Program-made: the position numbers and the translations under genes | Shown here: in pieces, positions 15,432 through 49,005 of the stretch | How the letters are laid out: the number at the start of each line of letters is the position of its first letter | Position numbering within the stretch: position 1 is the stretch's first letter | Notes under the pieces: generated by a model | Seen by the model: only the letters and a program-made list of their open reading frames with translations | What the model was told of the DNA's origin: nothing | The model's database searches: none | Assembly: GCA_903843305.1 (NCBI GenBank) | Contig: CAIMPI010000029.1 | Location: 1 to 49,005 of the forward strand | DNA from: an uncultured Chlorobiaceae bacterium | Lineage (GTDB): Bacteria > Bacteroidota > Chlorobiia > Chlorobiales > Chlorobiaceae | Reading direction: 5' to 3' | Length of the DNA: 49,005 bases

Positions 15432-15586
15432 TTGAAAGTAACCTGTTTTCAGTTTTAGAAATAGATCAACTGACAGGGGTTAGCAAAAGGCATGCGTAAC
15501 AGTATGAGCATCAGAAAACAATGCAAAAAGAGGTACAACTTTGCCCCGACTATATCCCGTAGTCCGATTTTATCATGCAAAAATAA

Positions 15587-15790
15587 CTGGCAGGTCTCCT
15601 GACTATAACGGCTTGCTTCCGATTCGGCCTTCCCACAGTTTTCCAGGGAGGAAAACATTGCAGTGACCTGAAACGACCGGCAAAATCAATGCATTATAGC
15701 AATGCAAAGCTTTTGTGGTTCACCGTTGTACAGTTGCGGGTACAGTGTACGATTCTCACGTACTTCCCTATTCTCCGGCTTTTAAGCCGG
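15587..15790 (-). promoter_or_regulatory. Cobalamin riboswitch (minus strand)
   Basis: Read on the minus strand, the element shows the expected order: GGGAAGTACGTGAGAATC, then a CCCGCAACTGTA core, a B12-box-like GGTCACTG, a GGGAAGGC stem, and the closing AGTCAGGAGACCTGCC. It lies about 155 bp upstream of the BtuB-like receptor ATG, leaving room for an expression platform. Known class behaviour is to shut off downstream genes when adenosylcobalamin binds. It probably governs the receptor and, through readthrough, bluB-cobQ-cobD. Confidence 0.93.
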
Positions 15791-16023
15791 CACCAGCTAC
15801 AACAACAAAAGAACAATTATGGTGCATTAAATAACAAATTCTCAGCAAAGAAGCAAACAGTAAACCGTTGTTATCCTTCATTCTTGCCACTTCAGCCTTT
15901 ACATAACTGAGGGCAAGAAGAGGAGTGGAAAGAGCGGAATCCTTCAAAAAGACGAAAGTTCAAGATGTTTTTTTGCATTCCTTGAACATCTGCCTTACTT
16001 TGCCTGAAATCTTGAACTACATT

Positions 16024-47390: not shown

Positions 47391-48639
47391 GAAACACCCC
47401 CCACGCCTGTGGGGAAGACCACACCCGAAAAAGGTCTGGACGGCTGAAGATGGAAACACCCCCACGCCTGTGGGGAAGACATCCCCATAGTATCGTTATC
47501 CAGATACCCTCTGGAAACACCCCCACGCCTGTGGGGAAGACTCCCACGCAACGCATTTGCCACGGCAACAGTCGGAAACACCCCCACGCCTGTGGGGAAG
47601 ACCTGAAAGGGACTGAAGCAGAGAGAGACCCGCGCGAAACACCCCCACGCCTGTGGGGAAGACTACGATTCCTGCATGTATGCTAACAATCTTCCAGAAA
47701 CACCCCCACGCCTGTGGGGAAGACGAATTGATCAAATTCTCATCGCGAAACCAATGAGAAACACCCCCACGCCTGTGGGGAAGACATCTCTATCAAGGCA
47801 GAAACATCACGATAGAGGGAAACACCCCCACGCCTGTGGGGAAGACTCATCCAAAAATGCAAGTAACTGCCCGGGGTCGGAAACACCCCCACGCCTGTGG
47901 GGAAGACTCAAGATCCTTAACCTCGCGCTGATGCGCGGTAGAAACACCCCCACGCCTGTGGGGAAGACGCGGTAGCTGTAGATAGATCAGCGTACAGAGT
48001 GGAAACACCCCCACGCCTGTGGGGAAGACGAGCGCGGGAATAAACCTCCCGTGCAGGATCAAGAAACACCCCCACGCCTGTGGGGAAGACTTGTGATCAA
48101 GCACCTTACCCTCCTTACGAGCAGAAACACCCCCACGCCTGTGGGGAAGACTCTATGCTCAGGGTACTACTGCCGATGCCGATGGAAACACCCCCACGCC
48201 TGTGGGGAAGACCGTCAGCGTTAGTACGATAATTGATCATAACTAGAAACACCCCCACGCCTGTGGGGAAGACTCGTTGAAATCCCACACCGTATTTATC
48301 GCCCTGGAAACACCCCCACGCCTGTGGGGAAGACTACGCAGGGATGGAAAAGGATGCCGCTGAGAAAGAAACACCCCCACGCCTGTGGGGAAGACCGGCA
48401 CCGGTTGGGTCACAATGCTGGCTTACTAGAAACACCCCCACGCCTGTGGGGAAGACTCGGAGATTGTTACAATGACGCTGTGGGTTTTGGAAACACCCCC
48501 ACGCCTGTGGGGAAGACTTCTCCCGACTGCTAACTCAGCTAAACAATTTAGAAACACCCCCACGCCTGTGGGGAAGACGCGGGAGAAGCTTTTCCATCTT
48601 TACCGGGGATGGAAACACCCCCACGCCTGTGGGGAAGAC
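47391..48639 (-). CRISPR. Type I-E-like CRISPR array, 21 repeats, 20 spacers
   Basis: A 28-nt repeat beginning GAAACACC and ending GGGGAAGAC on the plus strand, with the stem CCCCAC/GTGGGG. From 47453 repeats recur at an exact 61-bp period to 48612; all 20 spacers are 33 nt and differ from one another. Read on the minus strand the repeat starts GTCTTCCCC and ends GGGGGTGTTTC, like type I-E repeats. The first repeat (47391-47419) has one extra C, as expected for the leader-distal end, which puts the leader on the right and transcription on the minus strand. No cas gene is in the window. Confidence 0.97.
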
Positions 48640-48672
48640 TTGTAATGCTATCCGCAGATATGCCCGTGATTG
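48640..48672. other. 33-nt segment after the last repeat: leader stub or 21st spacer
   Basis: Exactly 33 nt lie between the last intact repeat and the point (48673) where the next repeat would fall. IS21-like sequence begins at about 48671. The segment is not especially AT-rich, so a 21st spacer whose following repeat has been displaced is as likely as a leader fragment. Confidence 0.4.
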
Positions 48673-48833
48673 AGCACACCGGAGTATAGTGTACCACCTC
48701 TACCGGAGCATAGTGTACCAATGATTCCGGAACAATATGTACCACCCGTACCGGAGCAAAGTGTGCCACCCCATCAGGCCGGATTTGTAACATCATAAAC
48801 AGTACCTTCGGTCTCATAAACTGGAGGTATACA

Positions 48834-48947
48834 ATGGCAAACAAAGCCTTGACTATGTTACAAGTTCGACGTATTCTTAAACTCTTTATGGAGGAGTCTT
48901 CCCAACGGGAAATCCATCGCAGTACGGGTATTCACCGCGTCACATGA
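48834..48947 (+). pseudogene. istA: IstA-type IS21 transposase, truncated after 35 codons
   Basis: MANKALTMLQVRRILKLFME, then ESSQREIHRSTGIHR, is the N-terminal HTH of IS21 IstA, with a strong GGAGGT ribosome binding site 5 bp before the ATG. Right after GIHR, where the HTH should continue NTV(R/K)KYL, the sequence switches to a 19-bp tandem repeat and a TGA stop. The gene is therefore broken, probably by a second element. Confidence 0.75.
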
Positions 48948-49005
48948 GCGGTATGGCGTCACATGAGCGGTATGGTGGCACATGAGCGGTATGGCAGCAC
49001 ATGAG
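48941..49005. repeat. 19-bp tandem repeat (3.4 copies to the window edge)
   Basis: CACATGAGCGGTATGG plus three variable bases repeats at 48941, 48960, 48979 and 48998. Even spacing and one variable tip resemble the binding-site arrays of IS21-type ends, distinct in sequence from the 24-bp array at 48678-48769. Confidence 0.85.

Follow-up and report, generated by a model that had tools for sequence, protein, structure and literature searches.

Repeat-spacer junctions of a type I-E CRISPR array from a Chlorobium-type green sulfur bacterium very probably copy the third base of an AAY PAM

Results

Architecture of the array and the junction base

What lies at the right-hand end of the window, the whole 49,005-nucleotide stretch of DNA analyzed here (contig C29), is a segment of a type I-E CRISPR array and an IS21-like element that cuts it (Table 1). 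None of the ten window ORFs scanned, eight of which lie within 8 kb to the left of the array, is a cas gene. All start-to-start spacings in the array are 61 nt, and in a 28-nt register the spacers are 33 nt long, that is, Y plus 32 nt. On the minus strand the repeat forms a CCCCAC-loop-GTGGGG hairpin, with the pairing read directly from the sequence, followed by GTGTTTC and Y. An earlier note, made from the sequence alone, had called a 28+1 repeat with 32-nt spacers, and this register holds: the hairpin GTGGGG leads into an 8-nt 5' handle made up of GTGTTTC and the variable Y. The array thus displays the palindromic hairpin repeat, the 8-nt 5' handle, and the 61-nt period of type I-E. The one-base-longer repeat that the earlier note placed at 47391 is likewise present.

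Table 1. Features of the window, with strand and description.
Feature	Position	Strand	Description
Cobalamin riboswitch	15572..15812	-	80.7 bits
CRISPR array segment, type I-E	47391..48639	-	21 repeats (GTCTTCCCCACAGGCGTGGGGGTGTTTC on minus), 20 complete spacers
Distal (oldest) repeat	47391..47419	-	29 nt, one extra G on minus (C on plus); no further repeat beyond
Putative PAM-derived position, example	48611..48611	-	base directly before each plus-strand repeat
Putative PAM-derived positions, full set	47452 + 61n, n = 0-19	-	purine on plus, C/T on minus in 19/20
Sole exception to the junction pyrimidine	47635..47635	-	G on minus, C on plus; first base of spacer W17 (47603-47635)
Spacer W15	47725..47757	-	Microviridae major capsid gene; AA directly upstream in 29/29 matches, then C/T
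Spacer W13	47847..47879	-	microvirus internal scaffolding gene
Spacer W12	47908..47940	-	Microviridae DNA pilot protein (VP2) gene, conserved TAHQREVKDL motif
Spacer W8	48152..48184	-	microvirus major capsid gene, 29/33; flank ...GAAGA, then C
Spacer W0	48640..48670	-	31 nt left, interrupted by IS element
IS21-like element	48671..49005	+	terminal TGAGCACACC, 24-bp repeats, start of istA-like ORF

The base preceding the plus-strand repeat is G in 10 spacers, A in 9, and C in 1, exactly the purine bias that had been read by eye; read on the minus strand, the repeat is accordingly followed by C in 10, T in 9, and G in 1. By chance a 19/20 bias has P = 2e-5, or 0.002 when 66 positions are allowed for. 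The junction is unique among the 33 positions of the window spacers, none other coming close, and the overall pyrimidine content of the spacers is 50%. Since Y stands for two letters, the junction base looks like spacer rather than repeat. The opposite spacer edge had been described as free of such bias. That edge is indeed far weaker than the near one, but a mild excess of purine in its last base is present: 14/20 in the window (p 0.06), 33/46 when the array on contig C47 of the same genome is included (p 0.002), and 232/368 in the family Chlorobiaceae (p 3e-7), as against 97-98% pyrimidine at the near edge. This excess perhaps reflects a preference at the leader-side integration end.

The junction pyrimidine recurs in other arrays. 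The C47 array has it in 26/26 spacers, so that window and C47 pooled give C or T in 45/46 (p about 6e-13). Thirteen Chlorobiaceae genomes, the source genome included, give 357/368 spacers, and the repeat core GTCTTCCCCACNNNNGTGGGGGTGTTTC across GTDB genomes, a set that spans several phyla (Chlorobi, Gamma- and Betaproteobacteria, sulfate reducers, Lentisphaerae, and others), gives 1133/1162; non-Y junctions amount to about 2-3%. C and T vary freely between neighboring identical repeats. In the Chlorobiaceae set, spacers of 32, 34, or 35 nt still keep the pyrimidine at the near end, which indicates that it is anchored to the leader-side repeat.

Orientation and the cas operon

Contig C47 (locus L010) opens in the middle of a repeat, in an array (1-1605) that has the identical repeat on the same strand. 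Its cas genes are ordered cas3-cas8e-cas11e-cas6e-cas7e-cas5e-cas1-cas2; all eight type I-E genes are present and the operon is complete. The cas2 stop codon is separated from the first repeat by 27 nt (L010 1606-1632), so that cas2 abuts the leader end of the array and leaves room only for a very short C47 leader, unless that leader is contained in cas2. Because the two arrays share repeat and strand, the position of cas2 fixes the leader end, and with it the minus-strand crRNA sense and the distal position of 47391. The minus strand is therefore supported as the predicted crRNA sense of the window array, and both the orientation and the old end proposed in the earlier note agree with the polarity of C47.

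The IS21-like element interrupts a spacer: it starts at about 48671, 31 nt away from the repeat 48612-48639. A 97% identical copy is found on contig C45. The window contig ends inside the element, in a further set of direct repeats, unrelated and 19 bp long (CACATGAGCGGTATGGC), which begins at 48941 and suggests a nested IS. On the simplest reading, C29 and C47 are one array split by the IS; the alternative is two separate arrays. A search for a C29-C47 junction via the IS found no contig with the other side. With the array cut at about 48671, expression of the window array is uncertain, and if there is one IS-split array, the 20 window spacers are separated from the leader and may not be expressed. 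A same-repeat array in the relative G030 (L035, C5:20800-25154; taken as Chlorobium sp. N1) is also interrupted, by a 3.1-kb insert.

Protospacers and the PAM

The 46 spacers of the window and C47, together with the IS-cut spacer, were compared with phage records by BLAST, which returned 38 weak matches, 37 of them to Microviridae. At least six spacers (W8, W12, W13, W15, K6, and K20; possibly also K21 and W11) have matches in Microviridae genes for capsid, pilot, or scaffolding proteins. W12 begins with a T that, in about half of the homologues, falls on the third position of an Asn codon AAY preceding TAHQREVKDL. An independent spacer in the relative G014 targets the VP2 motif that W12 matches, and W13 and the C47 spacer K20 (L010 385-417) correspond to overlapping sites on opposite strands of one microvirus scaffolding gene. 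Three other searches yielded little: 86 Chlorobiaceae genomes contain no protospacer or self-target of the 46 spacers and the IS-cut spacer (at limited sensitivity), degenerate scans of viral contigs for K6 and K21 gave no match, and the 4.3 kb searched of 13.6 kb of relatives' spacers gave a single weak phage match.

Against a comparison set of 116 microvirus contigs and regions, at a threshold of 25/33 or better, 15 Chlorobiaceae spacers match, whereas the reversed spacers used as control give 0. Averaged per spacer, A occupies position −2 in 10.8/15 and position −1 in 10.3/15, and this AA enrichment is confined to the 5' flank in the minus sense and does not appear downstream. The first spacer position is a pyrimidine in every microvirus match; since the matched phage has a pyrimidine there too, the junction base appears to derive from the protospacer. 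Examples of flanks are ATAA (W15, in the capsid gene), CCAA (W12), TGAA (K6), and GCAA (G014_52), each followed by T. These protospacers are relatives of the true targets (25-30/33 identical), which makes any single flank unreliable; GA, AG, or AC occurs in several and was counted against AAY.

Closer targets, and with them stronger evidence, came from I-E arrays on Klebsiella and Enterobacter plasmids, which have the same repeat and a closely related Cas1. Their spacers, with those of a same-clade Serratia, were searched with AA added at both ends. For the seven spacers with near-perfect plasmid or phage targets, 5/7 alignments enter the 5' AA, 1 enters a single A, and 1 neither, while the 3' AA is entered by 1/7; the plasmid-array spacer L335_6, with perfect targets that lack an upstream A, was counted against AAY. 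From the microvirus flanks and from the near-perfect protospacers of the plasmid arrays, most of which extend into the 5' AA, the predicted PAM is 5'-AAY-3', with Y retained at the junction. The spacer search and flank inspection that the earlier note had called for thus place AA on the 5' side and a pyrimidine as third base, in line with the pyrimidine-ended PAM that it had foreseen. The plasmid-borne type I-E loci themselves (L320, Klebsiella NZ_CP079158; L335, Enterobacter NZ_CP074179) are complete or IS-broken, and their spacers match other plasmids (traG, methyltransferase) and large Salmonella and E. coli phages.

Cas1e and the third PAM base

Simulations on crystal structures of E. coli Cas1 show Lys211 and Ile291 contacting C28, the complement of the PAM G, and Gln287 contacting the next T (PMC6395717); alanine replacement of His208, Lys211, and Gln287 is cited in the same paper as lowering acquisition. 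The Cas1e of C47 (L010 1944-2828) has Ser at position 211 and ends three residues after E. coli position 272, without the E. coli C-terminal tail. At the 45 clade loci with a readable cas1 stop codon (a few genomes being represented twice), every Cas1e ends within 7 residues of that of C47, and most or all of the E. coli tail, including Gln287 and Ile291, is therefore absent. An alignment of 37 clade Cas1e proteins has Ser211 in all and Met138 in 36; E141, H208, D218, and D221, the catalytic residues, are retained.

In a wider set of type I-E systems, all 14 with Lys211 (E. coli, Thermus, Deinococcus, Photobacterium, Acetobacter, Roseomonas, Synechococcus, and others) carry G as the junction base (86-100%), whereas 25 systems with Ser, His, or Asn lack a fixed G. 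A second Ser211 group (Salinibacter with relatives in the wider phylum, and Sphingomonas) has C or T and some G; S. angustmyceticus (His211) has 98% C; S. rochei and B. longum (Asn211) have a mixed junction base, which in B. longum is 60% G. Lys or non-Lys at residue 211 is thus perfectly associated with the junction base in 39 I-E systems, but in the Cas1 tree (G110, with a split Cas1, was left out) the residue-211 pattern needs two changes only, and supported branches force one; with at most two independent changes, the association is beyond statistical test and is suggestive only.

Discussion

What is the origin of the junction pyrimidine? We consider it very probable that the window array is the older portion of a type I-E array from a green sulfur bacterium of Chlorobium type, and that each junction in it copies the third base of an AAY PAM. 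During adaptation, Cas1-Cas2 would select DNA adjoining a 5'-AAY-3' PAM, and the PAM end would be trimmed so that the third PAM base remains on the prespacer. On integration at the first repeat's spacer side, this base would then become the 29th base of the new repeat, and every repeat-spacer junction would come to carry a copy of it, C or T. That trimming and integration by Cas1-Cas2 are the source of the base here is drawn by analogy from E. coli biochemistry.

Three other accounts were weighed. The pyrimidine could be a degenerate last repeat base under selection for crRNA processing or Cascade assembly, with no PAM copied. It would stand eighth in the presumed 5' handle, and genomes differ very little in the bias, as such selection would have it. 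Yet the matched phage sequences have a pyrimidine at the same place with AA before it, C and T interchange freely between adjacent identical repeats, and Lys211 systems of the same subtype have G there; we hold this account to be very improbable. Slightly less probable still is that the array is read on the plus strand, the purine being the last spacer base or the first repeat base. The window alone has neither leader nor cas genes to set the direction, but C47, with the same repeat and strand, has its leader end beside cas2; the repeat read on the minus strand fits known I-E repeats in the position of its hairpin and in its 8-nt handle; and AA occurs only 5' of minus-sense protospacers.

That the bias mirrors the base composition of the targeted phages, or chance, might be entertained for the window by itself, with its 19 pyrimidines in only 20 spacers (p 2e-5). 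No other spacer position is biased, though, at an overall Y of 50%, and the bias recurs in more than 50 loci with unrelated spacers; this replication refutes composition and chance, to which we attach a negligible probability.

With copying of the third PAM base as the preferred reading, we infer that this Cas1e would read AAY and not AAG because Ser replaces Lys at residue 211 and the C-terminal tail, which in E. coli contacts the PAM complement, is missing. The suggestive clade-wide coincidence of a tail-less Ser211 Cas1e with an AAY junction record is a testable lead. Tentatively, and leaning somewhat towards doubt, we extend it to a single Cas1 pocket that might set the third PAM base throughout type I-E: Lys211 with the tail would read C (PAM G), tail loss with Ser211 (or His or Asn211) would give a pyrimidine or relaxed choice, and the PAM class would be predictable from Cas1 alone. 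If this is true, array junctions give a record of the PAM without protospacers.

For annotation, one array read by eye gave the strand, the repeat register, and the PAM end, all in agreement with the tests; PAMs can be typed and arrays oriented from the junction base, with no need of a protospacer. As regards mechanism, type I-E systems with AAY and with AAG PAMs form a natural series for how Cas1-Cas2 picks the third PAM base, with a named residue and a tail to test. Furthermore, Chlorobium spacers against Microviridae add host evidence for these mostly uncultured ssDNA phages. Microvirus matches of Chlorobium spacers were also reported in a single-cell virome study of Chlorobium clathratiforme (PMC8226683), there from an array assigned to type I-C and here from type I-E arrays.

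Finally, the phenomenon itself is already known, since earlier work describes both a repeat base derived from the PAM (E. coli) and PAMs of AAY type (Gardnerella, Lactobacillus). In E. coli type I-E, the prespacer brings along the third base of AAG, which ends up as the last base of the repeat (Swarts et al. 2012, PMC3338789; review PMC10011333). The Chlorobiaceae arrays share with it the 28+1 repeat, the 61-nt period, and the apparent conversion of the third PAM base into the last repeat base. In E. coli, however, the PAM is AAG, so the near-constant G is annotated as repeat, while window and C47 have C or T at repeat position 29 in all but one of their junctions; and E. coli Cas1 has Lys211 and a 33-residue C-terminal PAM tail, both absent from the C47 Cas1e. 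Vink et al. 2021 (PMC8482600) used the PAM to orient arrays and noted for I-E a possible match between the PAM and the repeat base at −1, but that match concerns AAG only, and in Y systems the base would be counted as spacer. With protospacers preceded by AA and Y as third base, the present arrays fit the AAY type, which is on record for the I-E systems of Gardnerella vaginalis and Lactobacillus casei (listed in PMC4246573), with AAT for Ligilactobacillus salivarius (PMC11288051). These differ in phyla and repeats, and their PAMs came from protospacers or reporter assays and not from the junction base; the likeness is one of PAM, with Cas1 outside the comparison. What is new here is the trait in a new host lineage, clade-wide over several phyla, and going with a tail-less Ser211 Cas1e.
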